NCBI RefSeq assembly: GCF_000759025.1
Contig: NZ_JPOS01000033.1
Location: 1-64,000 of the forward strand
Reading direction: 5' to 3'
Length of the DNA stretch: 64,000 nt
Source of the DNA: Phaeodactylibacter xiamenensis
GTDB lineage: Bacteria; Bacteroidota; Bacteroidia; Chitinophagales; Saprospiraceae
A program made the position numbers and the translations under genes. Every line of letters begins with the position of its first letter. Within the stretch, counting starts at the first letter, position 1. Below, one piece after another: positions 38,923 to 55,883 of this stretch. The notes beneath the pieces are model-generated. The model was given only the letters and a program-made list of their open reading frames with translations, was not told the origin of the DNA and ran no database searches.

Positions 38923-39798
38923 TTAATGTGGCTGGTATTCCATCAAAGCGATAACTGGGAAATGGTCAGACAAATAATTATTATTGTACGAAAGGTTATT
39001 GGTTTCATAAAGCTCCACTGAAAACCCTTTGAAGAAGACATAATCAATGCGGCGATCATGGCTGGAATTCGGATTGAAGCCATTGAAGGTTCCGGTTGGC
39101 CCCAGCCGAACTTTTGCCTGTTCGTAGCTGTCTTGTAAATCGGTTTGCACGATAGTTTGGTAAGCTTCCGTGTTGGGTTCAACATTAAAGTCGCCGCTTA
39201 GGATGACCCAATGGCCAGCACTTTTAGCAGCTATAGAGTCCATAATCAGGGCAGCGCTGTTTACACGGGCCTCTTTCCCGACATGGTCGAAGTGGGTATT
39301 ATAGAAATGTACCTCCCGGCCGTTACGCTTGTCTTTCAAAACAGCGTAGGTACATATCCTTTCCATGGCGGCATCCCAGCCCACAGAAGGCTGCTCCGGC
39401 GATTCGGATAACCAGAAGGTGCCACTGTCTAAAACGGTAAACATGTCGTCACGGTAGAAAATAGGAGCATACTCTCCTTTACTAATACCATCCTCTCTGC
39501 CTACGCCGATGACTTTGTATTGGTCTAATTCATTTTTCAGGTACTGGAACTGATTATCAAGCACCTCTTGCATACCAATAATGTGCAGGTTTTCCGACTC
39601 AATATAGGCCGCCACTGCTGCTTTGCGTTTGTGCCAGTTGTTGGCTCCATCACCTGCGTGATCCAATCGGATATTAAAAGAAGCTGCTTTAACCTGATCC
39701 CGGGTAATGGATTTACCTGTGACTTCTACCGCCTTTTTTTCAAAAGCGCACTGCAGCAAGCCAAAGCCTACCAGTACGGCGAACAGTAGGCTCCTCAT
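38923..39798 (-). CDS. Endonuclease/exonuclease/phosphatase-family lipoprotein
   Basis: A 291-residue protein of the EEP superfamily (DNase I-like fold: phosphodiesterases, sphingomyelinases, inositol phosphatases). The ATG at 39798 gives MRSLLFAVLVGFGLLQC, a lipoprotein signal; a longer start at 39837 is possible. Active-site motifs are present: SFNIRLD, GMQEVLDNQ with the metal-binding E, YNTHFDHVG, LSGDFNVEPN, and the closing SDHFPVIALM. It is probably anchored in the outer or inner membrane, acting on extracellular phosphodiesters; the substrate is unknown. A second, unrelated-looking EEP domain occurs at 42.2-42.9 kb. Confidence 0.88.
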   Translation of the reverse strand: MRSLLFAVLVGFGLLQCAFEKKAVEVTGKSITRDQVKAASFNIRLDHAGDGANNWHKRKAAVAAYIESENLHIIGMQEVLDNQFQYLKNELDQYKVIGVGREDGISKGEYAPIFYRDDMFTVLDSGTFWLSESPEQPSVGWDAAMERICTYAVLKDKRNGREVHFYNTHFDHVGKEARVNSAALIMDSIAAKSAGHWVILSGDFNVEPNTEAYQTIVQTDLQDSYEQAKVRLGPTGTFNGFNPNSSHDRRIDYVFFKGFSVELYETNNLSYNNNYLSDHFPVIALMEYQPH

Positions 39799-39912
39799 TG
39801 ATGGGCGGTTGATATATGAGGCAATTGTATGGTACATTTCTTAAGAGCTTTTTTGACCTGACAGGAAGGGATAAAAAACAAGCAGAATCGAACTGTGTGC
39901 AAATGAAACGAT

Positions 39913-39986: not shown

Positions 39987-40991
39987 CTAGTTATCCGTAA
40001 CGGATACGTTGCCTACTCTGAGTATCGTAGCGTCAAAAGATGCAGGAGCACCTGCCCGGTACACAAATGCAATGGCAATCACTTCACCATTGTAAGCAGA
40101 AAGGTCCAGGTCACCGGTATTGGCAAGGTTATCTACACCGGGATCATTATCAGCTATAGCGGTATGACCAGCCTCAAAACGCTGCCAGGTGGCATTTTCC
40201 ACACTAACTGAGTAGTCCGTAGAAATCAGTACGTCATAAGCCCCTTCCGGATAAGGGAAATCAGCAGTAGGGTCAAAGCGCCGGTCAACATCAAAGCTAA
40301 GTACTGGATTAGTCGCTTCGGTCAGGTTCAGGCGGGGCGTTACCAGCCAAACTTCTGAACTCATATTGTCGGCTGAGCCGGGGACGAAAGCATTGACCTG
40401 CACAGCATTAGAGCCAAGGAAGTTGGCATCGCCACAGACCCAGGTCGCTGAGCCCTCGCCGTTCTGCTGGATTACGGCCTCGGTCCATCCGTCAGGTATG
40501 GGCTGCTGTGGGTCTTCCTCGCAGCCTGCAAAATCTTCCATAAGCGGCAAGTCAGCCCCTACATCTACAATTGTAATGATGGATTCAATGGTGATGCCGG
40601 TCGTAAGGCCAGGACCAGTGCTGGTCAGCATAAGGTTTGCAGTAAGCTGCCCTTCAATACCCGCCTCAATGGGCGTAAAGGTGAAAGAGGCCGTGCTGGC
40701 ACCGGACTGTACTGGGATCACCACTGTAGTGCCTGAAATAGCAGGATCAGTGCTGAAAGCTACGCCTGCGTCTGCGCCAGAGATCTCAATCTCAATCTCT
40801 GAGTCTTGAGTAGCTGCTGGAGAAATAGCCAGCTCCACCTCAATCGGGCTTAAGTCACTGGTAGTCAGATTGTAAATATCCTCTGTAAAGTTTACCGTTG
40901 AGATGGTGTCATCACCATCGTCATCGCAGCCCATGAAAGTGAGGGCGGAAATAGCAAAAAGACTAAGAATTAAATAATGCCAATTTTTCAT
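39987..40991 (-). CDS. Lipoprotein with Calx-beta-like and choice-of-anchor J domains
   Basis: A 334-residue surface lipoprotein. The start at 40991 (MKNWHYLILSLFAISALTFM, then GCDDDGDD) gives a lipobox MGC followed by acidic residues, a pattern known to help surface export of lipoproteins in Bacteroidota. A beta-sandwich of about 110 residues (DLSPIEVELAISPAATQDSE) is followed by a choice-of-anchor J domain (PLMEDFAGCEEDPQQPIPDG, WSEVWLVTPRL-like) of the jelly-roll type. No catalytic site is seen; adhesion or ligand binding is likely. A terminator follows. Confidence 0.75.
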   Translation of the reverse strand: MKNWHYLILSLFAISALTFMGCDDDGDDTISTVNFTEDIYNLTTSDLSPIEVELAISPAATQDSEIEIEISGADAGVAFSTDPAISGTTVVIPVQSGASTASFTFTPIEAGIEGQLTANLMLTSTGPGLTTGITIESIITIVDVGADLPLMEDFAGCEEDPQQPIPDGWTEAVIQQNGEGSATWVCGDANFLGSNAVQVNAFVPGSADNMSSEVWLVTPRLNLTEATNPVLSFDVDRRFDPTADFPYPEGAYDVLISTDYSVSVENATWQRFEAGHTAIADNDPGVDNLANTGDLDLSAYNGEVIAIAFVYRAGAPASFDATILRVGNVSVTDN

Positions 40992-41154
40992 AGATGTCTT
41001 GATTTTTAAAGATTTTGGTTTTAAAAGATCAGTATTCATTGGGAAGCCACTGACCAGATGCCTTAGCTTCTTTATTATAACGATTGTGACCGGCACTTCG
41101 TCTACCAGGAGACGGAACTAAATATTTTGAGATTTGTGAAATTTCATGGAAGGG

Positions 41155-41327
41155 CACTAGTGGTCTGTCAAGTGTTAATTTATGGGTTGAGTGGGAGCGA
41201 ATTTTGAGGCTAATCAAGGCGGATGTTCCCGCGCATAGCAGCGCTACGTAAGGGGTTATCCAACGAAGAGTAGCCTCAAAAGTCGCCGCAGGCAACCCCT
41301 AGTTTTAGCCTTGACAGACCACTAGTG
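41155..41327. repeat. Palindrome-ended element 1 of a tandem pair
   Basis: Perfect 18-bp terminal inverted repeats, CACTAGTGGTCTGTCAAG at 41155-41172 and its complement at 41310-41327. Inside, TTTTGAGGCTA (41202-41212) pairs perfectly with TAGCCTCAAAA (41271-41281), and AGGGGTT (41251) with AACCCCT (41294). No coding frame. The layout is like a MITE or a long structured transcript. Confidence 0.7.
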
Positions 41328-41489
41328 GCTCAAGTCCTAAATCCTTGACAACCCAAGCCTTGCTCTTTTGCCCGCTGATGTAACCTAAAAGCCTCGCCGT
41401 AGCTTCGGCTACGCCTACGTTTCCAGGCTTTATCAGCGAACAAAATTCCGGCGGCTTAATTATCAGAGACTTAGAACTTGAGCCACTAG
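41322..41489. repeat. Palindrome-ended element 2 of a tandem pair
   Basis: 19-bp ends, CTAGTGGCTCAAGTCCTAA at 41322-41340 and the complement with one mismatch at 41471-41489. Nested inside are CGCTGAT/ATCAGCG (41373, 41432), AAAGCCT/AGGCTTT (41388, 41425) and a GTAGCTTCGGCTAC hairpin with a TTCG loop (41399-41412). It overlaps element 1 by six bases (CTAGTG). Confidence 0.7.
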
Positions 41490-41751
41490 CGACCAGGGAA
41501 AGTTGAGTTACGTTGGCGCTTTGCGAAAAGTACTGATGTAAAATGAGTTAACTGGTTTTCGTCTGTCTGCTAAGATAGTTAAAAAAAGCAAAACATAAGT
41601 TGATCTTCCTTTTTGGTCTGGATGTGTTTGTGCGAGAAAAAATGTATATTTATTGTTATGCCTCCTTTAATAGAAGTGGGAAATGGAAGATCCCATGAAT
41701 TTGACCTTGCACGGAGGGCTGGTGCCGGGCATTATTACAAATCAGATACCA
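41490..41751. other. Upstream region of the large secreted nuclease-like gene
   Basis: No gene is supported here. An in-frame extension of the next gene back to an ATG at 41683 exists, but it would put 23 extra residues in front of the signal peptide. No clear TAnnTTTG box is visible. Confidence 0.35.
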
Positions 41752-44700
41752 ATGACAATTTTTACGATATTTCACCAAAACATAAAAGAAAACACCCTTA
41801 CAAGGTTGACATTGCTTTTACTCATACTTTTCTCCTGGGTGTATTCCGCAGCGCAATCCATCACCTGGCAAGCAGATTTAAATGGTCTGACTGGTGGCGA
41901 GTTATTAGCCAATCAGATAGGCGACGCTACAACTAACCAGGGGGCTTTCGGCTTGAACAATGCCAACCGCAATGCCCGTGAGGTAGAAACAGGCGGTGAT
42001 ATACTGGTTTTTCCAGGTATGATGACCGAGCTGGCGGTGAGCCCGGCCAGCCACTCTTTCCCTGATCAACAGATTTTACAGAGCTCGGTCCCACAGGCTT
42101 TTGACATTCAAAATACGGGTTCGGCTCCTCTGGCACTTAATCCCGACCAGATTTATCTGGAGGCTCAGGGCGCACAGTCGGCTCCCTTTTCTATCATGAC
42201 TTACAACCTCTGGTTTGACTCTCAAAACTGGCCCGCACGCTTCAACTACATGCTGGGTGAAATCCGGGAAGCCGATCCGGATGTGATCTGCCTGCAGGAA
42301 GTTATCCAACGGCCCAATCTGCCCAATCAGGCGGCCTCAATGGCGGACTCGCTGGGCTATTTCTACGTATTTACCTCACGCGACCCGGAAGGCGCGCCGA
42401 CCCGCTTCGGCAATGCCATTCTCTCTCGCTACCCCATTGAGGAAAGTAACGCGGTGGACCTGTCGCCGCTTAGTGATTTCCGTACCGCCATCCACGCGCA
42501 GATCGAGATCGGGGGCAATGTGATCGACATTTACAATACCCACCTGCATAACTCGGCAGTAGGCCAGCAAATCCGGGTTGAGCAAATCGAGGGCCTGAAA
42601 AGCTTTATCGACCAAACACAGACAGGTGATCTAACCTTTCTTTGCGGCGACTTCAACGCCGATCCCGACTGGGAAGAGATGGAGCTGGTGTATGAAGATT
42701 TTATCGATGTCTATCCGCTCTTTCACGAGAACGATCTGGCACCCGAGCACGGTACGCTTAATTTTAACCTGGATCATCAACAGCGGCGTATCGACTACAT
42801 CTTCTTCAGCAGGGAGAGCGCGGAGCAGCTCCGGCCTTTGCAAGCCGGTATTTTGCTGAATCAGCCATCGCCTACCGGTATCTACGGCTCAGACCACTTC
42901 GCGGTTGGGGCATCTTTTGATGTGCTTTCTCATGCTGACGAGTTCGTGTTGGAAAACCTGGATGCGGAAGTGATCCTGCAACCTAATCAAAGCGCCACAG
43001 TACAAGTAAGCTTTGTGCCTGAGACGGTGGGGCTCAAGGAAATCTTTCTGGTCGTTGATACCCTGAAAATACCGGTGAGCGGCACGGCTTTCGATGCGCG
43101 TGTGCTTTCATTCCCTTGGTTCGAGGGATTTGACGACCTGACTGATGGCAGTTTGCCTCAGGGGTGGGCGCGGACCCATCCGAACTGGAGGACTGTCGAT
43201 GCCAATTCGGCTGGTGGCAGTGCGCCGGAAATGAACTTCTGGAGGGAACCCATCACTACGGGCGAGCTGAGGCTGACCACGCCTGGTATTTTTACCAGTG
43301 GCCTGGACAGTATGGCTTTTTCCTTCAAACACCGGGTGCTGGACCCTGGGGAGCCTGGCCCCTTTTCTGTGAAGGTACTTGCCATCGCTGAAGGTGAGGA
43401 GTCCCTGATCCAAGAATGGACGGACCCCGCTGATATTGCTGCTAATGAGTACGAGACTACATTGTACAAGGCACAGCACGGTATCGGGACAGCACCCCTG
43501 CAATTGGCCTGGGTTTTCGAAGGCAACACCGCAGACATTACACAGTGGGATATTGACGATATAGGTTTGCGGGCACTGCCGGCGCTGAGCGTCAGCCCTG
43601 ATTCTGCTGATTTTGGTGCGGTGGTACTGGAAGAGGTTTCCGAGCCCACCTCCTTCACCATTCGCAATATCGGGGGCGATACCCTGCGGATAAGCCCTCA
43701 GGATATTGCCATATCCGGTCCGGCAGCGCAGGCGTATGTATTGGAAAACCTGACGGAAGAAGTAGCGCTGGGCGCTGGTGATCAGGTCTCTGTTGCTGTC
43801 TCTTTATTACCGATGGGGGAAGGGCTGCAAGAAGCCGTACTACAAGTGCAGCACCTGAGCATTCCCCTCACGGGAACGAGCGTGGACCCTACCATAGCTG
43901 AGCTGCCATGGATCGAGCCTTTCGAAGGGCTGGCTGGCGGTGGGCTGCCTATCGGCTGGGATGCAGAAGTGGAGAACTGGGGTGCCTTTAACGCAAATAA
44001 TGCCGGCGGTGAATCCCCGGAGATGACCTTCTGGTGGCAGCCGGAAACCCAGGGTGCCTTCCCACTGTATTCGCCCAAGGTGCTGACGGGGGATGCAGAT
44101 AGCCTTCTGTTCTCCTTCAGGTATCGCATTCGTGACTTTGGTTCGCCGGGTATTTATACCCTGAAGGTAGTAGCCATGACCGGGAGCGAGCAGCACCTCA
44201 TCGCAGAATGGGTGGATCCACCTCTCATTGATGCCGCTGATTTTTCCGCTATCCTCACTCAGGAGGAGCATGGGTTGGGTGCGGATGATCTACGCTTCGC
44301 CTGGATTTTTGAGGGGCAGACCGATAATATTACCCAATGGGATATTGATGACATCACGCTGGGTTTCATACCCGAAAATCCGGAACTGACGGTGAGCACA
44401 GCTGTTATTGATTTTGGTGAACAGGAGACCGGCGATGTTTCCGCGCCGGCTGCACTGACCTTTAGCAACGCAGGCGGCGGGCAACTGACTCTTCAACCGG
44501 AAGATATCTTTATTGACGGAGCGGATGCCGACGATTTTGTATTGGAAAACATCTCTCAGCAGGTCACCCTGACGACGCTCGAAGAGACCAGTATTTCCAT
44601 TGCCTTCGCACCGGAGACAGTCGGTGCAAAACAGGCCACCTTGCACATTCAGGGCGTGGAGATTGACCTGACGGGGCAAGCAGTGGAGCCTGCTGACTAC

Positions 44701-45483
44701 TTTGTTTATTCCGATTTCAGCATTATTGAGGATGGGAGGGAATATACCAATGTGGGCGGCTTCCGTGAGGTTGCTGGCTTCTCAGCAGGCAGTATGACGG
44801 CGGTGGATCAATCAGGCGTTGGCGAATACGGCGACGTGGCAGTCGAGCTGGATTTCGATACCGAGTTGAGCACATCGCGCACCGTTTACTACATGTGGGC
44901 TTTCCCGCCCGTGGACTTGAGTACCTTCAACCGCATCGTCATCGTGGCCCGGGCAGAAAATCCGGCTATAGATGTGAAAATCAACTTGCAGGATACGCAA
45001 GGTGTCAATGGTCAGGACGGTGGCAGCGAAACTTTTATCGATATTGGCACGGATTGGACGCTGATTGACCTCCCCGTTGAGGAATTCGACCTTGCGAGCT
45101 GGGCAACTAACCCACCCAGTATGTCGGAGATTCAAAAGATCGATATGGAATTTGTGCAGGATGTTACGCTACCCAGCGCCAATAAGGTCTGGGTTGACCT
45201 GGTCGGTTTGTACTTCGATCCGGCTTTGTCGAGCGCTGAGGCAACCGATGAAGCGCCCTTCAAGCTATTCCCAAATCCCGCCCAGACGCACTGCTGGGTG
45301 CAGACAGAGGCTGCGGGTCGAATACAGCTCTGGAGCGCTACCGGCCAACTGCTGGAAGAAGTGCCGCTGCAAACGGCGGGCAGGCAGCAGCTTTCTATCG
45401 AAGAACTGCCGGTGGGTGTATATTGGGTGCGCTTTCTGCAAAAGGATGGTGGTACAGCGGTGCACATGTTGCTGAAGCAGTAG
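41752..45483 (+). CDS. Secreted multidomain protein: EEP nuclease domain nested in an Ig-like domain, anchor J/D repeats, T9SS tail
   Basis: About 1243 residues from the chosen ATG (41752), which gives signal TLTRLTLLLLILFSWVYSAA. Residues 92-446 are a choice-of-anchor D (Ig-like) domain with an endonuclease/exonuclease/phosphatase domain (about 144-394) inserted in one loop: the first half ends QIYLEAQGAQ, the nuclease has IMTYNLWF, CLQEVIQRP, YNTHLHN, LCGDFNADPDW and GSDHFAVGASF, and the Ig half resumes at DEFVLENLDAEVILQPNQSA. Two choice-of-anchor J domains (FPWFEGFDDLTDGSLPQGW, LPWIEPFEGLAGGGLPIGW) alternate with two further intact D domains. Then comes a carbohydrate-binding-like jelly roll (about 990-1150) and a type A T9SS sorting tail. 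All EEP metal and catalytic residues are kept, so it is probably an extracellular nuclease or phosphodiesterase. Confidence 0.85.
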   Translation: MTIFTIFHQNIKENTLTRLTLLLLILFSWVYSAAQSITWQADLNGLTGGELLANQIGDATTNQGAFGLNNANRNAREVETGGDILVFPGMMTELAVSPASHSFPDQQILQSSVPQAFDIQNTGSAPLALNPDQIYLEAQGAQSAPFSIMTYNLWFDSQNWPARFNYMLGEIREADPDVICLQEVIQRPNLPNQAASMADSLGYFYVFTSRDPEGAPTRFGNAILSRYPIEESNAVDLSPLSDFRTAIHAQIEIGGNVIDIYNTHLHNSAVGQQIRVEQIEGLKSFIDQTQTGDLTFLCGDFNADPDWEEMELVYEDFIDVYPLFHENDLAPEHGTLNFNLDHQQRRIDYIFFSRESAEQLRPLQAGILLNQPSPTGIYGSDHFAVGASFDVLSHADEFVLENLDAEVILQPNQSATVQVSFVPETVGLKEIFLVVDTLKIPVSGTAFDARVLSFPWFEGFDDLTDGSLPQGWARTHPNWRTVDANSAGGSAPEMNFWREPITTGELRLTTPGIFTSGLDSMAFSFKHRVLDPGEPGPFSVKVLAIAEGEESLIQEWTDPADIAANEYETTLYKAQHGIGTAPLQLAWVFEGNTADITQWDIDDIGLRALPALSVSPDSADFGAVVLEEVSEPTSFTIRNIGGDTLRISPQDIAISGPAAQAYVLENLTEEVALGAGDQVSVAVSLLPMGEGLQEAVLQVQHLSIPLTGTSVDPTIAELPWIEPFEGLAGGGLPIGWDAEVENWGAFNANNAGGESPEMTFWWQPETQGAFPLYSPKVLTGDADSLLFSFRYRIRDFGSPGIYTLKVVAMTGSEQHLIAEWVDPPLIDAADFSAILTQEEHGLGADDLRFAWIFEGQTDNITQWDIDDITLGFIPENPELTVSTAVIDFGEQETGDVSAPAALTFSNAGGGQLTLQPEDIFIDGADADDFVLENISQQVTLTTLEETSISIAFAPETVGAKQATLHIQGVEIDLTGQAVEPADYFVYSDFSIIEDGREYTNVGGFREVAGFSAGSMTAVDQSGVGEYGDVAVELDFDTELSTSRTVYYMWAFPPVDLSTFNRIVIVARAENPAIDVKINLQDTQGVNGQDGGSETFIDIGTDWTLIDLPVEEFDLASWATNPPSMSEIQKIDMEFVQDVTLPSANKVWVDLVGLYFDPALSSAEATDEAPFKLFPNPAQTHCWVQTEAAGRIQLWSATGQLLEEVPLQTAGRQQLSIEELPVGVYWVRFLQKDGGTAVHMLLKQ

Positions 45484-45643: not shown

Positions 45644-47263
45644 ATGAGATTGCTGTTATTCTTTACGGTATTCATGCTATCATTTTCGGCCTGCCAGCAA
45701 GCTGCCGAAGAGGCGGAAGAGCGCCCCAATATCATATTCATCATGAGTGATGACCATGCTTATCAGGCGATTAGCGCCTACGATGAGCGCCTGATCAGTA
45801 CGCCCAATATCGACCGACTCGCAAGAGAAGGCATGCTCTTCACGAATGCGTCGGTCACCAATTCCATCTGTGCACCGTCCCGGGCAACAATACTGACTGG
45901 CAAGCACGCCCACATCCACGGAAAAATTGATAATGTCTTTCCTTTCGATACGACCAACATCACTTTTCCACAAATCCTGCATGACAATGGCTACCAAACG
46001 GCCATGTTCGGCAAACTTCACTTTGGGAACAACCCAAAAGGCTTTGATGAATTTAAAATCCTGCCCGGGCAAGGTGATTACTACAACCCGGATTTCATCA
46101 CCAGCGAAGGCGATACCAGCATACAAGGCTACGTGACGGATATCATTACGGATATGACCCTCGACTGGCTGGGCAACCGCCGGGAGGAAGACAAGCCGTT
46201 TATGCTGTTCTACCTTCACAAAGCTTCCCACCGCGAGTGGTTCCCGGCTCCACGCCACTACAAGGAGTTTACTAAGCGTACCTTCCCGGAGCCAGCTACC
46301 CTTTTCGACGATTACAAAGGCCGGGGCACAGCGGCTAAAGAGGCGGAGATGAATTTGCTGGAGCATATGACCATATCTGCCGACAATAAAATCTACCCCG
46401 AACTGGCCAAAGAACTCGGCGTGGAAGAGCCCAGTGAATGGGGCTATCGGGTATTCAAGAGCAAATACTCCCGCTTCACCGAAGAACAAAAACAAGAGTG
46501 GGATGCCGTCTACGGGCCTATAAACGAAGAATTTGCGGAGCTGTACCCCACTATGGACGATTCTACGTTCATGCGGTGGAAGTATCAGCGCTACATGCAG
46601 GATTACCTGGCCTGCGTGGCAGCTGTAGACGAAAACGTGGGACGCGTCCTCGATTACCTTGATGAAAACGGGCTTAGCGACAACACCATCGTGGTTTACA
46701 CATCTGATCAGGGCTTCTACCTGGGCGAACATGGCTGGTTCGATAAACGGTTCATCTACGATGAATCTTTCCTGACTCCGCTGCTGGTCAAGTGGCCCAA
46801 AAAGATCAAGCCCGGCTCTGTCTCTAATGCAATGGTACAAAACCTCGACTTCGCCCAGACTTTCCTGGAGGCGGCAGGCGTGGAAGCTCCCGAAGATATG
46901 CAGGGCGAAAGCTTGATGCCCTTGCTGCAAGGTGATAACAGACAGTGGGGGCGGGATGCCGCCTACTACCACTACTACGAATACCCCGGTGCGCACATGG
47001 TTAAGCGCCACTATGGTATCGTCACTGAGGATTATAAACTGGCGCACTTTTACTACGATATTGATGAGTGGGAGCTGTACGACCGCAAAAAAGACCCCAG
47101 AGAGCTGAATAATGTCTACAATGACCCGGCTTACGCCAAAGTAGTGCAAGAGCTTACGCAAAAACTTTATGAGCTTCGGGAGCAGTACAAGGATTCAGAA
47201 GAACTGGACCAGAAATACATCGAATTGTACCGGGAGCGGGGGATCATTAAAGAGAAGCAGTAA
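45644..47263 (+). CDS. Sulfatase-family lipoprotein
   Basis: A 539-residue lipoprotein (MRLLLFFTVFMLSFSAC, C17). The type I sulfatase active site is complete: SICAPSRATILTGK, with C76 to be converted to formylglycine; calcium ligands D36/D37 in IIFIMSDDHAY and the later TSDQGFYLGEHGWFDKR. The second half (EWELYDRKKDPRELNNVYND) is standard. Sulfatases remove sulfate esters from glycans; related enzymes with the same fold cleave phosphonate or phosphodiester bonds. It needs a formylglycine-generating enzyme (anSME or FGE), not found in this window. It lies 468 bp before the glucanase genes, so its membership in that locus is uncertain. Confidence 0.92.
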   Translation: MRLLLFFTVFMLSFSACQQAAEEAEERPNIIFIMSDDHAYQAISAYDERLISTPNIDRLAREGMLFTNASVTNSICAPSRATILTGKHAHIHGKIDNVFPFDTTNITFPQILHDNGYQTAMFGKLHFGNNPKGFDEFKILPGQGDYYNPDFITSEGDTSIQGYVTDIITDMTLDWLGNRREEDKPFMLFYLHKASHREWFPAPRHYKEFTKRTFPEPATLFDDYKGRGTAAKEAEMNLLEHMTISADNKIYPELAKELGVEEPSEWGYRVFKSKYSRFTEEQKQEWDAVYGPINEEFAELYPTMDDSTFMRWKYQRYMQDYLACVAAVDENVGRVLDYLDENGLSDNTIVVYTSDQGFYLGEHGWFDKRFIYDESFLTPLLVKWPKKIKPGSVSNAMVQNLDFAQTFLEAAGVEAPEDMQGESLMPLLQGDNRQWGRDAAYYHYYEYPGAHMVKRHYGIVTEDYKLAHFYYDIDEWELYDRKKDPRELNNVYNDPAYAKVVQELTQKLYELREQYKDSEELDQKYIELYRERGIIKEKQ

Positions 47264-47731: not shown

Positions 47732-49723
47732 ATGCCACTAACCAATCGTCTGCTACCTTTCCTGGCGTTACTACTATTCGCGTCCCTTTGCTTCCTTTCC
47801 TGTGAAGAGGAAGAAGACCCTTCAGGTATGGGGATGGAGCGCCTGACGATAACTTTCGTCCGCCTGGGGAGCCAGAATATTTCCGATATGAGTACCGTGG
47901 ACGGCGATGGGGATCTTACCATGCGGTTCTCCAGCCCGGTGGAAGTGACCTCAAACGACCTGTTCCAGATATACGCCGATGGGGTACTATTGGAGGATAC
48001 AGAATCCTGGAATTCGCTGGATGAAAGACTAACGATTCAGCTAGAGGAAGATTGGGTGGAAGGCCAAACCTATACCTTACAGACACGTACACCAATCACG
48101 AGCCCGGGACTGGAGCCTCTGGAAGCTTTCTCCATTAGTTTTACCATCGGCCTTGGAGCGCTCTCTGTCGAAGCGCTGACGTCTGATACAGTCGCCTTTG
48201 CACTCGATGGTGAGTCCCTTAATGACGAAATCCCGGTGGCGGGGCCATTTACCATTACTTTTTCGCACGCATTGTCCATGTCGCCGGAGGAACTGGGGGG
48301 GCAGATGGCTATAGAAGGGCCTGAGGCGGTGGACTTTACCGTTTCGGCACAGAATGACTCCGTTTTTCAGTTGCAGTTTGCGCAGCCACTGGCCGATTTT
48401 ACAACCTACCAGCTATCGGTGTCCCCAAGCCTGGGAGCAGTCGCCGGGCGTGATTTTACCGGTTTGGACCTGACCTTTTACACCGGGGCTTCGGCAGAGC
48501 TGGATTTCCCGTTGTTGTCAGATGAAGACCTAATGACCAAAGTGCAGGAGCAGACCTTCCGCTACTTTTGGGACTTCGGGCACCCGGTTTCGGGTATGGC
48601 CCGCGAGCGCAATACCAGCCTGAATACGGTGACGAGCGGCGGCAGTGGCTTTGGCCTTATGGCGATGATTGTGGCTGTAGAAAGGGAATTCATCACTCTG
48701 AGCGAGGCCGTCGGTCGCTGGGAGCAGGTCGTCGGATTCCTGGAAAATGCCGATCGGTTCCACGGGGCGTGGGCGCACTGGATGGATGGAGAAACCGGAG
48801 CAGCCCGGCCATTCAGCGCACTGGACAATGGGGGAGATTTGGTAGAAACCGCTTTTTTGGTACAGGGCCTGCTGACCGTGCGCGAGTACCTGAAACAAGA
48901 AGTGCCAGGACAAACTGATCTGATCGACCGTATCACAGTGCTCTGGGAAGGGGTGGAGTGGGACTGGTACACCAAAGGGCAGGATCAGGCACTGTACTGG
49001 CACTGGTCGCCGGATCACGAATTCGAAATCAATTTGCCAATACGCGGGCACAACGAAACCCAGATGACCTATATCCTGGCAGCTGCCTCACCAACCTATC
49101 CGATAGAACCATCCGTATACCATTCGGGCTACGCAAGGGGAGGGGCAATGGTCAATGGCGACTCCTTCTACGGCGTCACCCTGCCATTGGGCAATAGTGA
49201 CTTTGGCGGGCCTCTGTTTTTTACCCACTATTCCTACCTCGGGCTCGACCCCCGAAATCTGGAAGACGACTATGCCAACTACTGGACACAAAATATCAAT
49301 CATTCCCTCATCAATCATCTGTACTGTGCTAATAATCCACGGAGATTCTTTGGCTACTCCGAACAGTGCTGGGGTTTGACCGCAAGTGACAGCTTCAACG
49401 GATACACGGCGCATAGCCCCACCAACGATCGCGGTGTTATTACCCCTACAGCCGCCTTGTCATCTATTGTATTCACCCCGGAAGAAAGCATGGCTGCTTT
49501 ACGTCATTTTTATTACGATTTGGGAGACCGCCTTTGGGGCGAGTACGGTTTCTACGACGCCTTCCACCCCGGCGAAAACTGGGTAGCGGACTCCTACCTG
49601 GCCATCGATCAGGGCCCTATCATCTGTATGATGGAAAACTACCGGACCGGGCTGTTGTGGGAGTTGTTCATGTCCGCTCCGGAAGTACAGCAGGGGCTGG
49701 ATGCTTTAGATTTCACCTACTAA
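47732..49723 (+). CDS. GH144-like endo-beta-1,2-glucanase lipoprotein with two N-terminal Ig-like domains
   Basis: A 663-residue lipoprotein (signal MPLTNRLLPFLALLLFASLC, FLSC with C24, then EEEEDPS, an acidic surface-export-like signal). Two Big_5/Ig-like domains (about 35-140 and 145-253) precede a catalytic alpha/alpha-barrel (about 262-660) of the 'glycoamylase' (Pfam PF10091) family that contains GH144. NADRFHGAWAHWMDGETG and DNGGDLVETAFLVQGLL stand out; D369 and E372 have the spacing of the two acidic residues that I recall as candidates for catalysis in the Chitinophaga enzyme. Family members cut linear beta-1,2-glucan to sophoro-oligosaccharides. First gene of a tight four-gene operon; the next start is 12 bp downstream. 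Confidence 0.82.
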   Translation: MPLTNRLLPFLALLLFASLCFLSCEEEEDPSGMGMERLTITFVRLGSQNISDMSTVDGDGDLTMRFSSPVEVTSNDLFQIYADGVLLEDTESWNSLDERLTIQLEEDWVEGQTYTLQTRTPITSPGLEPLEAFSISFTIGLGALSVEALTSDTVAFALDGESLNDEIPVAGPFTITFSHALSMSPEELGGQMAIEGPEAVDFTVSAQNDSVFQLQFAQPLADFTTYQLSVSPSLGAVAGRDFTGLDLTFYTGASAELDFPLLSDEDLMTKVQEQTFRYFWDFGHPVSGMARERNTSLNTVTSGGSGFGLMAMIVAVEREFITLSEAVGRWEQVVGFLENADRFHGAWAHWMDGETGAARPFSALDNGGDLVETAFLVQGLLTVREYLKQEVPGQTDLIDRITVLWEGVEWDWYTKGQDQALYWHWSPDHEFEINLPIRGHNETQMTYILAAASPTYPIEPSVYHSGYARGGAMVNGDSFYGVTLPLGNSDFGGPLFFTHYSYLGLDPRNLEDDYANYWTQNINHSLINHLYCANNPRRFFGYSEQCWGLTASDSFNGYTAHSPTNDRGVITPTAALSSIVFTPEESMAALRHFYYDLGDRLWGEYGFYDAFHPGENWVADSYLAIDQGPIICMMENYRTGLLWELFMSAPEVQQGLDALDFTY

Positions 49724-49735
49724 AAAACAGAAAAC

Positions 49736-51043
49736 ATGATTCGATACATTGCACTAGGCTTACTGTGCGCCTTATTGGGCAGCCCGGCTGTTGCGCAGTC
49801 CGACGAAGCGCTGCTCGACCGGGTACAGCAGCAAACCTTCAACTACTTTTGGGAGGGCGGAGAGCCCATCTCAGGCGCTGCACCGGAACGCATACACGAA
49901 GACGTCTACCCTCAGGACGATGCCGATGTGGTCACAAGTGGTGGCACGGGCTTTGGTATTATGGCTACGATCGCTGCCATTGAGCGCGGATATATCAGCC
50001 GTAAGGCCGGGCGAAAGCGCCTGCAAAAGCTGGCGGAATGGCTACGCGATGCCGACCGCTTTCACGGTGCCTGGGCGCATTGGATGTACCCTTCCGGCAA
50101 GGTCAAGCCTTTTAGCCGCTACGATGATGGAGGCGATTTGGTAGAAACCGCTTTCCTGGTACAGGGACTGATTGTGGCGCGGCAGTATTTCCGAAAGGGC
50201 AACAAAAAAGAGCGCGAGCTGGCAGAGCTGCTGGATCAGCTGTGGCGGGAGGTAGAGTGGTCGTGGTATACTCAGGGTGAGAATGTGCTGTACTGGCATT
50301 GGTCCCCCACCCACGAATGGCGCATGAACTTTGCAGTGACGGGCTACAACGAGTGCACCATCATGTACATTCTGGCTGCCGCTTCGCCTACCCACCCGAT
50401 TGACCCGGCCGCCTGGCACGAAGGCTATATGAAGGATGGAGAGATTGTCTCCAACGAAAGCGCTTACGGCTATGATGTCGTGCTTGACCACAACGGCGAG
50501 CAGACCATCCCGGTAGGTCCGTTGTTTTGGGCCCACTATTCTTTTCTGGGGCTGAACCCACAGGGGCTGCAAGATTCTTACGCCGATTATTGGGAGCTGA
50601 ACCGCAGTCACGCCCTGATCCACCATGCCTACGCTGTTGAAAATCCAAGGGAGTACAAGGGCTATTCGGAAGCCTGTTGGGGAATGACGGCCAGTTATTC
50701 CCTGGGTGGTTATACTGCTCACGCCCCTTCGAATGACATGGGGGTGATTACGCCCACTGCGGCGCTTTCCTCTTTTCCCTACACACCGGATGAGAGCATG
50801 GCCTTTTTGCGGCATTTGTACACTAATCACCCGGACTATATCGGGCAATATGGTCCCTACGATGCCTTTAGCGAGCAATCTGGCTGGTGCCCGCCCTGCT
50901 ACCTGGCCATCGACCAATTACCCATCCCCGTGATGATAGAGAACTACCGCTCGGGCCTGATTTGGGAACTATTTATGTCTGCCCCTGAAATACAGGAGGG
51001 GTTGAAAAAACTGGATATACAAAAGCATACAACCACAAAATAA
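49736..51043 (+). CDS. GH144-like endo-beta-1,2-glucanase, single domain
   Basis: A 435-residue paralogue of the preceding catalytic domain, with a cleaved signal (MIRYIALGLLCALLGSPAVA, cut before QSDEAL) and no lipobox, so periplasmic or released. Blocks match closely: QQQTFNYFWEGGEPISGAAP, DADRFHGAWAHWMYPSGKVK, DDGGDLVETAFLVQGLIVAR (D134, E137), YWHWSPTHEW, CWGMTASYSLGGYTAHAPSN, GVITPTAALSSFPYTPDESM. It is of the size of the single-domain GH144 enzymes. One surface lipoprotein and one soluble paralogue suggest a division of labour: the first cuts the polymer outside, this one trims imported chains (inference). Its stop overlaps the next start (TAATG). Confidence 0.88.
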   Translation: MIRYIALGLLCALLGSPAVAQSDEALLDRVQQQTFNYFWEGGEPISGAAPERIHEDVYPQDDADVVTSGGTGFGIMATIAAIERGYISRKAGRKRLQKLAEWLRDADRFHGAWAHWMYPSGKVKPFSRYDDGGDLVETAFLVQGLIVARQYFRKGNKKERELAELLDQLWREVEWSWYTQGENVLYWHWSPTHEWRMNFAVTGYNECTIMYILAAASPTHPIDPAAWHEGYMKDGEIVSNESAYGYDVVLDHNGEQTIPVGPLFWAHYSFLGLNPQGLQDSYADYWELNRSHALIHHAYAVENPREYKGYSEACWGMTASYSLGGYTAHAPSNDMGVITPTAALSSFPYTPDESMAFLRHLYTNHPDYIGQYGPYDAFSEQSGWCPPCYLAIDQLPIPVMIENYRSGLIWELFMSAPEIQEGLKKLDIQKHTTTK

Positions 51044-54039
51044 TGAACCGTACCACTATTCTTTCCTTTGTCTCACTTTTATTCGCTAACCTGGCGTGGA
51101 GCCAGACAGAGACCGGAACCTATCTGTACCGGCAGCATCAACATGGCGATTATACGCTCAATTACCGGGTGCTTTATCCGGAAGGGTTTGATGACCATCA
51201 ACGCTACCCAATCGTCTTATTCCTGCACGGACGGGGCGAAAGCGGCGATGATAACGAAAAGCAGCTCGTGCACGGCAGTTCGTTGTTTTTAGAAGCACAA
51301 ACGGAGTATCCGGCTATTGTGATTTTTCCGCAATGCCCAACCTCTGATTATTGGTCGAATATCGATCGTATTGAAAAAGATGGCGGCGGATTGCAATTCA
51401 AATTCCCCTCTGACCGGCCTGCCAATCCCGCACTGTCAGCAGTAATGGACTTGGTAGACCAGGAATTGAAAAAGCCGTATGTAGATGAAAACCGCCTATA
51501 CGTCACGGGGTTTTCCATGGGCGGTATGGGCACATGGGAGCTCCTGTGGCGGATGCCTGAGAAGATCGCCGCAGCAGCGCCCATTTGCGGGGGCGGCCCA
51601 CCGGAAATGGCGCACAAGATGACTGAGGTGCCCATCTGGGCGTTTCATGGTTTGAAAGACGATGTCGTGCAGCCCCGCTTTTCCATTAATATGGTGCGGG
51701 CGGTGCAGCGCGAAGGCGGGTTAGCCAAAATCACCCTGTTTCCGGACGCTAACCACAATTCCTGGGACCCCACTTTTGCCGATCCGGACTACTTGCCCTG
51801 GCTCTTTTCAAAGTATAAGGGGGAGCCTTATTCTTTGTTGGTAGACTCCCTGCTTTCCATCATGACACTGGAAGAAAAGATTGGACAGCTCAACCTCGTC
51901 ACACAAGGTGGAGCCGTAACCGGAGCGGTCATCAGCAGCGATGTAGAGCAAAAGATCAAAGACGGAAACGTGGGCGGCATCTTCGGCTCGCGCAGCGCTA
52001 AAAAGATGCGGGATATTCAGCAGATTGCCGTAGAGCAAAGCCGCCTGGGCATCCCCCTGCTGACGGCAATGGATGTCATTCATGGGCATCAGACTATCTT
52101 CCCAATCCCAATCGGTATGTCCTGCACCTGGGATCCTGATCTGCTGCAGCAAGTGGCCCGTACAGCAGCCCGGGAAGCCACGGCCGATGGTGTGATGTGG
52201 AACTTCTCGCCTATGGTGGACATTGCCCGCGACCCACGTTGGGGGCGGGTGGCGGAGAGTGCCGGAGAAGACCCATTCCTGGGAGCGCGGATCGCCGAAG
52301 CCATGGTGCGCGGCTACCAAATGAATGACCTCACTGACCCGACCACTGTCATGGCTTGCGTAAAGCACTTTGCGGCTTATGGTGCCTCAGAGGGGGGCCG
52401 GGACTACAATACCGTAGACATGAGCCGGGTGCGCCTGCACAATGAGTACCTGCCGCCTTACAAAGCGGCCGTGGATGCTGGTGTGGGCTCCATCATGACC
52501 TCTTTTAACGTCATCGATTATGTGCCCGCTACGGCTAATGAATACCTGTTCCAGACCATCCTGCGGGACCAATGGGGCTTCGATGGGTTCGTAGTGACCG
52601 ACTACACGACCATCAACGAATTGATCGAACATGGCATGGGCGACTTACAGAAGGTCTCCGCTTTGTCGCTCAAGGCTGGTGTCGATATGGATATGGTAGG
52701 GGAAGGCTATGTAACCACGTTGAAAAAATCCCTGGAAGAGGGGCTGATTACGGAAGCGCAGATTGACCTGGCTTGCCAGCGTATTTTGATTGCCAAAGAG
52801 CGGCTGGGCCTGTTTGATGACCCTTACCGTTACTTCGATGAAACCCGGGCGCCTAAGGAAATCCTTTCGGAAAAGAACCGCCGTTTTTCACGCGAAGTGG
52901 CAGGTCAGTCGGCAGTACTATTGAAAAATGAAGGTGGTGTGCTGCCGCTGGACAAATCGGCGAATATCGCACTGATCGGCCCACTGGCGGACAACCAAAC
53001 CAATATGCTGGGTACCTGGAGTGTATCCGGAGATTATAAAAAGTCGATCACCGTACGTCAGGGGCTGGAAGCACAGCTTGGAGCAAACGGAAGCATCCGC
53101 TACGCCAAAGGAGCCAATATTTCTGATGATAGCACCTTCGCCAAACGGGTAAATGCTTTTAATCCGCAGATTGTCATTGACGAGCGCTCACCAGAAACCA
53201 TGATTGCGGAGGCGGTCGATATCGTTAATCAGTCGGATGTGATTGTAGCAGTAATGGGGGAGGCTGCCGATATGAGCGGAGAGTCTTCAAGCATGGCTTT
53301 CATCGGGTTGCAACCCGCTCAGGAACGACTGCTGAAGGCCCTCAAGGCAACCGGTAAGCCCATTGTGCTGGTGCTATTCAACGGCCGGCCGATGACCTTA
53401 ACTTGGGAAGATGAAAACATGGACGCCATACTCGACGTCTGGCACCCAGGCACCGAAGCGGGCAATGCGGTGGCGGACCTGCTGTTCGGCGAGGTGAACC
53501 CTTCCGGGAAATTAACTACTTCCTTCCCTGTATCTGTGGGGCAAATCCCCGTTTACCACAGCATGCTGAATACTGGGCGCCCCTACGTGAAAGGAGGCCG
53601 CCGGAAGTTCCTGTCCAATTATCTGGACATCCCCAACGAGCCGCTTTATCCCTTCGGCTACGGGCTGAGCTATACCCAATTCGAGTATGGAACGCCTGTT
53701 ATTTCCAGAACAGAAATGGAAAAAGGCGGGAAAGTGACGGTTAGCGTAAGCGTAAAAAATACAGGTGAACGCGAAGGGCAGGAGGTCGTACAGTTGTACA
53801 TCCGCGATGTGGTAGGCAGCATCAGCCGACCGGTCAAAGAACTGAAGGGCTTCGAAAAAATCTTGCTGAAGCCCGGAGAGGAAAAAACGGTCCGTTTTGC
53901 CATCGATGAATCTTTGCTGGAATTTTGGACCCCCGAGAACGGATGGGCGGCGGAGCCCGGCGAGTTTCAGGTGTTTGTGGGTCCGAATTCCCGGGATGTG
54001 CAGATGCTATCCTTTGAGTATGCCAAAACAAAACGATGA
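51043..54039 (+). CDS. Fusion of an alpha/beta-hydrolase esterase and a GH3 beta-glucosidase
   Basis: A 998-residue exported enzyme (signal to SLLFANLAWS, cut before QTETG). Residues 25-258 are an esterase-type alpha/beta hydrolase: PIVLFLHGRGESGDD, nucleophile S158 in YVTGFSMGGMGTWEL, acid D206/D207 in FHGLKDDVVQP, and H238 in DANHNSWDP. Residues 265-998 are a full GH3 enzyme: the TIM-like domain with KHFAAYGASEGGRDYN, nucleophile D520 in FDGFVVTDYTTINELI, the second domain with VMGEAADMSGESS, and a C-terminal fibronectin-like domain (VKNTGEREGQEVVQLYIRDV). GH3 members in beta-1,2-glucan loci hydrolyse sophorose-type oligosaccharides. The attached esterase suggests substituted substrate. ATG overlaps the previous stop by one base, and the next gene overlaps by four. 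Confidence 0.92.
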   Translation: MNRTTILSFVSLLFANLAWSQTETGTYLYRQHQHGDYTLNYRVLYPEGFDDHQRYPIVLFLHGRGESGDDNEKQLVHGSSLFLEAQTEYPAIVIFPQCPTSDYWSNIDRIEKDGGGLQFKFPSDRPANPALSAVMDLVDQELKKPYVDENRLYVTGFSMGGMGTWELLWRMPEKIAAAAPICGGGPPEMAHKMTEVPIWAFHGLKDDVVQPRFSINMVRAVQREGGLAKITLFPDANHNSWDPTFADPDYLPWLFSKYKGEPYSLLVDSLLSIMTLEEKIGQLNLVTQGGAVTGAVISSDVEQKIKDGNVGGIFGSRSAKKMRDIQQIAVEQSRLGIPLLTAMDVIHGHQTIFPIPIGMSCTWDPDLLQQVARTAAREATADGVMWNFSPMVDIARDPRWGRVAESAGEDPFLGARIAEAMVRGYQMNDLTDPTTVMACVKHFAAYGASEGGRDYNTVDMSRVRLHNEYLPPYKAAVDAGVGSIMTSFNVIDYVPATANEYLFQTILRDQWGFDGFVVTDYTTINELIEHGMGDLQKVSALSLKAGVDMDMVGEGYVTTLKKSLEEGLITEAQIDLACQRILIAKERLGLFDDPYRYFDETRAPKEILSEKNRRFSREVAGQSAVLLKNEGGVLPLDKSANIALIGPLADNQTNMLGTWSVSGDYKKSITVRQGLEAQLGANGSIRYAKGANISDDSTFAKRVNAFNPQIVIDERSPETMIAEAVDIVNQSDVIVAVMGEAADMSGESSSMAFIGLQPAQERLLKALKATGKPIVLVLFNGRPMTLTWEDENMDAILDVWHPGTEAGNAVADLLFGEVNPSGKLTTSFPVSVGQIPVYHSMLNTGRPYVKGGRRKFLSNYLDIPNEPLYPFGYGLSYTQFEYGTPVISRTEMEKGGKVTVSVSVKNTGEREGQEVVQLYIRDVVGSISRPVKELKGFEKILLKPGEEKTVRFAIDESLLEFWTPENGWAAEPGEFQVFVGPNSRDVQMLSFEYAKTKR

Positions 54040-55883
54040 TGAATAAGCCAATTTTTCGCTGGCAGGTATACCTGCTGCTGCTCTTTCTTTTAGGCAGCTG
54101 CATGGAGCCTGTCGGCAAAGCGCAGGAAAGCACTACGGACCTGGCTACAGAACGCAATTACAAAACCTACTGCAATCCGATAGACATCGACTACTCCTAC
54201 ATGTCGCACTACCGGGCCCGGAACAATGTCTCCTATCGTTCCGGGGCAGACCCGGCGGTGGTTAATTTCAAGGGGAAATACTACCTCTTCGTCACCCGCT
54301 CCCATGGCTATTGGGTTTCTGACGATATGAGCAACTGGAAATTTATCCGCCCGCAGAGCTGGTATTTTAATGGTTGCAACGCTCCGGCGGCAGCCGTCAA
54401 GGATGGCAAAATCATCCTACTGGGAGACCCCTCCGGCCGGGGTGCGGTGATTGAGACGGATAATCCCGAGCTGGGAGACTGGACAACCAACTTCGCCGTC
54501 ATCAACGTACCGAGGGGCGTACAGGATCCCAACCTGTTTGTAGACGACGACGGGCGGGTCTATTTGTACGAAGAGTCCTCCAACAAGTGGCCTATCCACG
54601 GTATTGAGCTGGATCCCAACAACTGGTACGTACCCATTGGCGAGCAGGTGGATCTGTTCAATCTGAACCCGGAAAAGCACGGCTGGGAGCGCTTCGGGCA
54701 AGACCATAAATCAGACCTGAAGCCTTTCATCGAGGGCCCCTGGATGATGAAGCACGGCGATACGTACTACCTTGAGTACGGTGCCCCCGGAACGCAGTGG
54801 AACGTCTACGCGGATGGCGTGTACACCAGCAAATCCCCGCTGGGCCCCTTCGAATATGCGCCTTATAACCCCATTTCGTACAAGCCGGGAGGGTTTTTGA
54901 AAGGCTCCGGCCACGGCAGCACGGTGCAGGACAATAACGGCAACTACTGGCACTTTGCCACTATGGCGATTTCAGTCAACTTCAAGTTTGAGCGCCGCAT
55001 CGGCATGTACCCGGCAGGCTTTGACGAGGACGGGCAGATGTACGTCAATACCGCATACGGCGATTACCCGCACTATCTGCCGGATACGGAGGTGGAGAAT
55101 CACAAAAACCGCTTTACGGGCTGGATGCTGCTGTCTTTTGGCAAGCCGGTCACCACCAACTCCAAGCTGGTGGAGTCGGATGTGAATGTGGTGGACGAAA
55201 GCGGAGACGGCTATATGCTCGGGCAGATCACAGATTTTGGCATTGAGCAGATCAACGATGAAGAAATCCGTTCCTACTGGGTGTCGGTAGCGAACCACGA
55301 TTCCATTTATGTGCAGGTAGACCTGAAAGAAGTAATGGACGTGAAAGCCATTCAAATCAACTTCCAGGATTTCAAAAGTGAGATTTTCGGCCGGCCGGAT
55401 ACTTTGAAGCAGCAATTCGTCATCAGCGCTTCCCTGGACGGCGAGCAGTGGGAAGTGATTGCCGATTACTCGGACAACCAACGCGACATGCCGCACGGCT
55501 ACATTGAGCTGCCGGAGGCGGTGGAAGCCCGTTATATCAAATACGATCACGTGCACTGCAGCACCAAAAACTTGGCGATCTCAGAGTTCAGGGTGTTTGG
55601 CAATGGAAAGGAAGCCTTACCTGCTGCGCCGGCTGACTTCAAAGTAGAACGGCAGGAAGACCGCCGCAACGCCCTGCTTTCCTGGACGCCGGATCCCGAA
55701 GCGACAGGGCACGTCATCTACTGGGGCATTGCCGAGGATAAACTCAACTTGTCGGCACAGATGTACGATCAGGCATCATACGAACTGCGGGCGCTGAATA
55801 CGGACCAAGGCTACTATTATCAGGTGGAAGCCTTTAATGAAAATGGCATTTCAGGACGCAGTGGAATTGTTTATACAGATTGA
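54036..55883 (+). CDS. GH43-like propeller lipoprotein with F5/8 type C and fibronectin III domains
   Basis: A 615-residue lipoprotein (signal ends LLLFLLGSC, C22). A five-bladed-propeller domain (about 40-390) resembles GH43/GH117-like enzymes: SYRSGADPAVVNFKGKYYLF (D72 would be the general base), then VPRGVQDPNLFVDDDGRVYL, YLEYGAPGTQWNVYADGVYT, GSGHGSTVQDNNGNYWHFAT. A discoidin (F5/8 C, CBM32-like) domain (about 400-530) has RYIKYDHVHCSTKNLAISEF, followed by a fibronectin type III domain to the end. The linkage cleaved cannot be predicted; arabinose, galactose or a glycan side group are possible. Its start overlaps the GH3 stop by 4 bp, so it is cotranslated with the glucan enzymes. Confidence 0.83.
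   Translation: MMNKPIFRWQVYLLLLFLLGSCMEPVGKAQESTTDLATERNYKTYCNPIDIDYSYMSHYRARNNVSYRSGADPAVVNFKGKYYLFVTRSHGYWVSDDMSNWKFIRPQSWYFNGCNAPAAAVKDGKIILLGDPSGRGAVIETDNPELGDWTTNFAVINVPRGVQDPNLFVDDDGRVYLYEESSNKWPIHGIELDPNNWYVPIGEQVDLFNLNPEKHGWERFGQDHKSDLKPFIEGPWMMKHGDTYYLEYGAPGTQWNVYADGVYTSKSPLGPFEYAPYNPISYKPGGFLKGSGHGSTVQDNNGNYWHFATMAISVNFKFERRIGMYPAGFDEDGQMYVNTAYGDYPHYLPDTEVENHKNRFTGWMLLSFGKPVTTNSKLVESDVNVVDESGDGYMLGQITDFGIEQINDEEIRSYWVSVANHDSIYVQVDLKEVMDVKAIQINFQDFKSEIFGRPDTLKQQFVISASLDGEQWEVIADYSDNQRDMPHGYIELPEAVEARYIKYDHVHCSTKNLAISEFRVFGNGKEALPAAPADFKVERQEDRRNALLSWTPDPEATGHVIYWGIAEDKLNLSAQMYDQASYELRALNTDQGYYYQVEAFNENGISGRSGIVYTD

Follow-up and report, generated by a model that had tools for sequence, protein, structure and literature searches.

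An EEP enzyme nested within a choice-of-anchor D domain of a predicted surface protein of Phaeodactylibacter xiamenensis

Can a complete enzyme of the EEP superfamily sit within one loop of a small beta-sandwich domain, and what would it do there? The window analysed here, a stretch of 64,000 nucleotides from a Phaeodactylibacter xiamenensis contig, raises this question through one open reading frame (41683-45483, plus strand, 1266 codons) encoding a predicted surface protein of 1266 aa. An earlier note, made from the letters of this DNA, had proposed that a nuclease interrupts the first of three choice-of-anchor D domains (D1 to D3) of this protein. We find that an EEP domain does lie there. 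The best explanation as a whole, to which we give a probability of about 0.55, is that this nested EEP is carried by a scaffold displayed through the type IX secretion system (T9SS) and works as a phosphoesterase of a glucan locus.

The modules of the protein follow one another in the order signal-like N-terminus, choice-of-anchor J remnant, D1 enclosing the EEP, J1, D2, J2, D3, C-terminal domain and T9SS-type sorting tail. Picked by eye against the N-termini of homologues, the start is more likely the internal ATG at 41752, followed by a signal-peptide-like segment (residues 24-58, 41752-41856, plus strand, also by eye). The earlier note probably counted from this ATG: it had the right site, and its residues 92-446 become 116-473 in the numbering of the longest frame. 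Right behind the signal peptide, alignment to intact J domains revealed a truncated J remnant of about 55 aa (41857-42021, plus strand), which by its sequence would represent loss of an N-terminal module; the homologue L051 carries an intact J domain at this place, and L049 and L050 carry none. Behind D1, and all on the plus strand, come J1 (43102-43572; two stretches of NF038128, and alignment), D2 (43573-43893), J2 (43894-44373; best NF038128 stretch at residues 795-892) and D3 (44374-44694; best NF012200 stretch at residues 894-990). Both D2 and D3 are intact by our D profile (see below), and the borders of J1 and J2 were taken from the adjoining D domains. The choice-of-anchor D model NF012200 matched the whole protein in three stretches with 112.5 bits, passing its cut-off of 45, and the left half of D1 alone gave 27.3 bits, below that cut-off.

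A Pfam scan gave no match for the C-terminal domain (44698-45210, plus strand) in the window copy, and this domain is weakly CBM11/CIA30-like in homologues, always below the curated cut-off (CBM_11 at E 9.6e-4 in L060; CIA30 at E 3e-4 and CBM_11 at E 2.4e-3 in L053). The T9SS type A sorting domain (45265-45480, plus strand) scored just below the cut-offs of both of its models (TIGR04183, 21.3 vs 23 bits; PF18962, 23.4 vs 27). TIGR04183 was passed in all three homologues scored (L055, 51.5 bits; L060, 48.2; L057, 39.6), and the genome of the window encodes the translocon protein SprA (TIGR04189, 2372 bits vs a cut-off of 200). We consider display of the window protein on the cell surface by T9SS likely.

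D1 (residues 116-473, 42028-43101) is one choice-of-anchor D (ASH/PapD-like) domain split by a 254-residue insert that holds the EEP. Its left half (residues 116-162, 42028-42168) stops at Q162, the insert runs from G163 to S416 (42169-42930), and the D sequence restarts at H417 with the right half (residues 417-473, 42931-43101), all on the plus strand. When four nested D1s were aligned by MAFFT with the window's own D2 and D3, a single long gap spanned the EEP. The same nested order, for which the earlier note had suggested a search, was found in 12 public loci; the proteins encoded there share 46-87% identity with the window protein, and in the scan all 12 match the query at 47-87% identity over a stretch that begins at its residue 1 or 4 and ends at 357 or 358. 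The scan that gave these loci used two short peptide patterns, so that more distant nested forms may escape it. Across the 13 proteins (the window protein and these 12), the insert is 254 residues long in 12 and 255 in one.

To these 13 proteins we applied a D profile made exclusively from intact D2/D3 copies (18, from ten proteins), and it matched D1 as two complementary pieces in every case (E 6e-10 and 1.5e-13 for the two pieces in the window). The right piece begins at profile position 52 in 11 proteins and at 54 in two; the left piece stops at positions 54-66, and in some rows its match overruns the split by up to 14 positions into the first EEP strand, which blurs the left border. Run against 35 non-nested EEP proteins, the profile found no match (best E 1.1). 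A two-piece match in all 13 nested proteins and in none of the 35 others is a signal far above chance. Seen from the enzyme side, eight stand-alone EEPs match the model of the nested region from position 42-53 to 275-317 of 357, and the solved EEP structures listed align mostly from about model residue 51 to 301, giving an EEP structural domain at residues ~166-416 (~42178-42930, plus strand). In the better matches, the borders drawn from the D side and from the EEP side agree within a few residues. The strings quoted in the earlier note proved exact and correctly placed, and we consider the nested architecture practically certain.

What kind of enzyme is held in this loop? PF03372 covers residues 172-405 with 85 bits, against a cut-off of 24.5, and matches all 13 nested rows at E 0.001. 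Nine residues of active-site type are invariant in the 13 proteins (N175, E206, N285, H287, D323, N325, D371, D404 and H405); their catalytic roles are assumed from the DNase I-like superfamily. Profile matches in the PDB include sphingomyelinase-type enzymes, nocturnin and Tdp2. In an AlphaFold2 model of the nested region, built from 13 sequences, the EEP part matches Tdp2 best (4gyz_D; Z 24.3, rmsd 2.7, 227 residues aligned); its fold matches also include neutral sphingomyelinase (8j2f; Z 23.4, rmsd 2.9, 239 aligned) and the mannosyl-6-phosphatase BT3783 (4c1r; Z 23.2, rmsd 3.0, 228 aligned).

The gene neighbourhood points to glycans. Downstream of the nested gene, on the same plus strand, lie a sulfatase gene (45644-47263), two genes of the Glycoamylase family PF10091, which we take to cover GH144 (47732-49723, GH144-type with an Ig-like N-terminal part, and 49736-51043), a GH3 gene with an esterase-like N-terminal part (51043-54039), a GH43 gene (54036-55883), a SusC-like gene (56369-59419) and a SusD gene (59429-60985). 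The closest solved chain to the second PF10091 protein is 5gzh, an endo-beta-1,2-glucanase (E 1.2e-169). These are the only two PF10091 copies in the genome, and both lie behind the sulfatase gene, at most 6 kb downstream of the nested gene. Of the 12 public loci, seven (L052, L053, L054, L055, L058, L059 and L060) have a PF10091 gene immediately upstream of the nested gene and in the same orientation. The copy in L055 is closest to 4gl3, a 'putative glucoamylase' (E 1.4e-158), and matches 5gzh at E 4e-144. The distance from the nested gene to SusC and SusD genes is 11-15 kb in the window, where they are downstream, and 1.4-6 kb in L055, where they are upstream. No PF10091 gene was found beside the nested gene in L049, L050, L051, L056 and L057, where part of the neighbouring ORFs was scanned. 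In L049, L050 and L056 the contig stops close to the nested gene; L051 and L057 count against the idea of a glycan locus.

On the other side of the nested gene, and on the minus strand, lie a stand-alone second EEP gene (38923-39837), BT3783-like (E 7.9e-54 to BT3783), and a choice-of-anchor J lipoprotein-like gene (39987-41096; NF038128, 50.4 bits). Both also adjoin the nested gene, in the same order, on the contigs L040 and L041 (those of L049 and L050). The stretch upstream of the nested gene (41150-41490) shows by eye two adjoining imperfect inverted repeats (ccactagtgg; ggctcaagt/acttgagcc), MITE-like in appearance.

The strongest alternative keeps the same nesting but sees in the EEP a DNase or RNase of the cell surface, used for scavenging nucleic acid. 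Many nucleases belong to the EEP superfamily, the best fold match is Tdp2, and two exonuclease III models give weak matches (TIGR00195, E 5.3e-6; TIGR00633, E 9.9e-5). These models fall far short of their cut-offs, however (26.2 vs 182.55 bits and 22 vs 99.05 bits), the fold matches to 8j2f and BT3783 are nearly equal to that of Tdp2, and in seven of the 12 loci the gene adjoins a PF10091 gene. We consider a scavenging nuclease rather unlikely, and the word nuclease used in the earlier note goes beyond what the specific models and the usual context, a glycan locus, would justify.

A second alternative is a phosphodiesterase by which the cell would acquire phosphorus, its substrates being the head groups of phospholipids or other phosphodiesters. 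The best PDB profile match of the nested EEP, the sphingomyelinase-type 3i41 (E 1.4e-12), argues for it, as do SusCD-like complexes co-located with phosphodiesterases, known from Flavobacterium (PMC8115612). But the bacterial sphingomyelinase equivalog TIGR03395 reaches only 23.4 bits in the nested homologue L057, against a cut-off of 248.2, and is absent from the matches listed up to E 1 for the window protein, and the partner genes seen are glycoside hydrolases. We consider such a phosphodiesterase improbable. As a separate observation, a 519-aa protein of a relative (L046:5306-6862) fuses an EEP to a glycerophosphodiester phosphodiesterase-like domain, behind genes that look by eye like SusC and SusD; it is a further hint of phosphodiester use in such loci.

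We return to a phosphoesterase of a glycan locus, the reading that we favour. We give about even odds to the EEP being a metal-dependent phosphoesterase that serves this locus. The GH144-type context, together with the phospho-substituents of osmoregulated periplasmic glucans (OPG), makes it reasonable to predict that such an enzyme would strip phospho groups: in E. coli, OPG can bear phosphoglycerol and phosphoethanolamine groups (PMC10514313). Phosphate-linked substituents on beta-1,2-glucan-type glycans are a possible substrate, which we propose tentatively. In this scheme T9SS would deliver the protein to the cell surface, where the doubly tethered EEP would most likely strip the substituents, and the adjoining GH144-type glucanase and SusCD would then process the stripped glycans. 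The fullest version of the proposal is somewhat more doubtful still: a new T9SS-displayed family, with its EEP clamped in an ASH-like domain, that would take phosphate-linked substituents off beta-1,2-glucans and so let these Bacteroidota and their neighbours use decorated osmoregulated or cyclic glucans through their GH144-type loci, the double tether fixing the active site relative to the scaffold.

The double tether requires that the two halves of D1 close into one fold. The model of the nested region is confident (pLDDT 85.4, pTM 0.83), with blocks of 93-98 in the left flank and 92-98 in the right; a single segment, 235-252 within the EEP, falls below 50, and 29 residues score between 50 and 70. 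D2, modelled alone, reached a pLDDT of 95.5. Nine of its ten predicted strands have an in-register counterpart in the flanks of D1: to the left of the insert, D2 strands starting at 5, 26, 38 and 45 are found in D1 at 2, 23, 35 and 42 (offset -3), and to the right those starting at 55, 64, 71, 84 and 95 are found at 306, 315, 322, 335 and 346 (offset +251). The tenth (12-18) appears in D1 as a pair of short bridges (9-10 and 14-15), and a short helical turn preceding FVLEN is common to both models. The fold was named from D2, since searches with the whole nested model list EEP structures and say nothing on the D part. D2 matches the SPD-2 domain of CEP192 (7ptb; Z 13.4, rmsd 2.1, 101 aligned), the ASH region of OCRL1 (3qbt_F; Z 10.3, rmsd 2.0, 97 aligned) and HYDIN (2e6j, Z 10.2, rmsd 2.0, 97 aligned; 2ys4, Z 10.2, rmsd 2.3, 96 aligned), and its predicted fold is accordingly ASH/PapD-like.

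Sequence and model together place the EEP in the D1 loop, and the claim of one EEP in one loop with the D fold resuming behind it holds well, with confident flanks, elements that match the intact D2, and conservation in all 13 proteins. The further expectation that the flanks would form one sandwich agrees with the recurrence of the D2 strands on both sides; that the halves touch is what we infer from these strands and from the confidence of the predicted model. One could instead imagine a disguised tandem, in which the D1 halves stay separate and the EEP simply stands behind a half-D sequence. The contacts do rest on a predicted model, and some left D matches overrun the split by up to 14 positions, but all 13 proteins have complementary halves, the insert length is constant, nine of ten strands are in register and the flanks reach a pLDDT of 92-98, which makes such a tandem very improbable.

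How far does the nested form reach, and how old is it? Its full-length version was found in four genomes of a set of 147 relatives: that of the window, G001, G003 and G018. In 395 phylum-wide genomes (E 1e-15, best five candidates per genome) it was present in the window genome only, with stand-alone EEPs in eight others. The earlier note had read the protein as showing how T9SS scaffolds take up catalytic cargo; this is too general for one family present in 1 of 395 phylum-wide genomes and with no empty-site relative among the candidates scored. The 12 public loci are assigned in the database to Phaeodactylibacter, Saprospiraceae, Bacteroidales, Sphingobacteriia, Balneolales or just Bacteroidetes, and their isolate names presumably point to salt and soda lakes. 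A search of viral contigs gave 30 pattern matches, none of them related to the nested protein. An assembly chimera in a metagenome bin is hardly credible: all 12 loci with a stated source are MAGs, several from the same two sample series, but identical junctions occur in 13 proteins at 46-87% identity, from several projects and with an open frame throughout.

In a 48-row tree of EEPs, the 13 nested rows form one clade (support 100/100) on a long stem, which carries a long-branch warning and leaves the sister group unsure. In an unrooted 31-row tree of D domains, the D1s split from D2 and D3 at support 96. These trees fit a single old insertion that was passed on by descent, and perhaps by transfer as well; the insertion event and its single origin are what we infer from the sequences. 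The DNA bears no clear signal of a recent insertion: the 120 bases around each junction share no common exact word of at least 8, G+C is 0.553 in the left flank, 0.538 in the insert and 0.520 in the right flank, and third-position G+C is slightly raised in the insert (0.56, 0.65 and 0.58, respectively). The adjoining EEP gene (38923-39837) is a possible source of the insert; in the tree it is one of five rows placed together as sister to the nested EEPs, with support of only 91/81 and under the same long-branch warning.

A relative with an empty D1 was sought with a profile running from J1 to the C-terminal domain (E 1e-20) in the overlapping sets of 147 and 395 genomes, scoring up to seven candidates per genome in the former and two in the latter, so that weaker relatives may be missed. 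Among the candidates scored in the two sets, no full-length relative lacked the EEP, and, with the best few candidates per genome scored, no homologue combined an intact D1 with a separate EEP, the arrangement that the earlier note had named as speaking against nesting. Full-length matches came only from EEP-bearing proteins (G000, G003 and G018, best candidates per genome); the match in G001 is cut off by the contig end, and the others (G140, G264 and G434) span 127-159 of the 700 profile positions. Among the matches listed for PF03372 over the 147 relatives, the nested G018 protein alone has an ORF longer than 450 aa. No D domain is listed in any of the long EEP ORFs of the relatives L046 (519 aa), L044 (1015 aa) and L045 (763 aa). 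As to the content of the last two, L045:2880-5168, from a relative of the same order, combines a T9SS sorting domain with a sphingomyelinase-like EEP (TIGR03395, 151.1 bits vs a cut-off of 248.2), and L044:1063-4107 carries, next to its EEP part, a PRK13679-like match (47 vs 129 bits) and a weak match to a CBASS oligonucleotide cyclase (20 vs 200 bits).

The direction of the event, EEP into D, is suggested by the two D domains that this protein has kept intact, D2 and D3. The ancestor would have been a surface protein of alternating J and D modules, the latter ASH/PapD-like, which took up a complete EEP phosphoesterase in the D1 loop between the DIxI strand and the turn and strand 'ADxFVLEN'. 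The D fold would close around the insert and hold it by two short linkers, whose modelled lengths are about 5 and 2 residues. The EEP would thus sit near the N-terminal end of the module chain, with the weakly CBM11-like domain and the T9SS sorting signal at the far end.

The protein offers a clear natural example of a small beta-sandwich that accommodates a large enzyme, both folds apparently kept, and its internal repeats and the 13 related proteins pin the border nearly to the residue. It may serve as a template for the tolerance of domain insertion and for the rigid mounting of enzymes on surface scaffolds, and its frequent GH144-type neighbours hint, in a way that can be tested, at one step by which phospho-substituted glucans are degraded. 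Our literature search found no match for a choice-of-anchor D domain combined with a nuclease and, among the matches listed, no EEP partner of the GH144 endo-beta-1,2-glucanase loci (5gzh, 5z06), which the locus resembles through the 5gzh-like product of 49736-51043. Among the EEPs of Bacteroides, BT3783, which acts in a mannan locus, resembles the nested EEP in fold and the neighbouring gene 38923-39837 in sequence; it is stand-alone, however, and by the tree the nested EEP is only its distant kin. In a survey of domain insertions (PMC13114784), these occur in 20% of multidomain proteins and split the host as A1-B-A2, as in D1. The inserted domain is smaller than its host in 77% of the surveyed events (medians of 115 vs 199 residues), whereas here the host has about 107 residues and the insert 254; the main text of the survey contains none of the terms DNase I, endonuclease, immunoglobulin and Ig-like. 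Another likeness is found in the inositol 5-phosphatases OCRL1 and INPP5B, members of the DNase I-like superfamily in which a phosphoesterase is joined to an ASH domain like that matched by D2. There the two stand in tandem, the ASH domain of OCRL1 coming after the catalytic domain (PMC4278560), whereas the window protein holds its enzyme within the ASH-like domain, and does so in a bacterial surface protein. Domain insertion and the tandem of phosphatase and ASH were already known; the nested form varies them in a new way.
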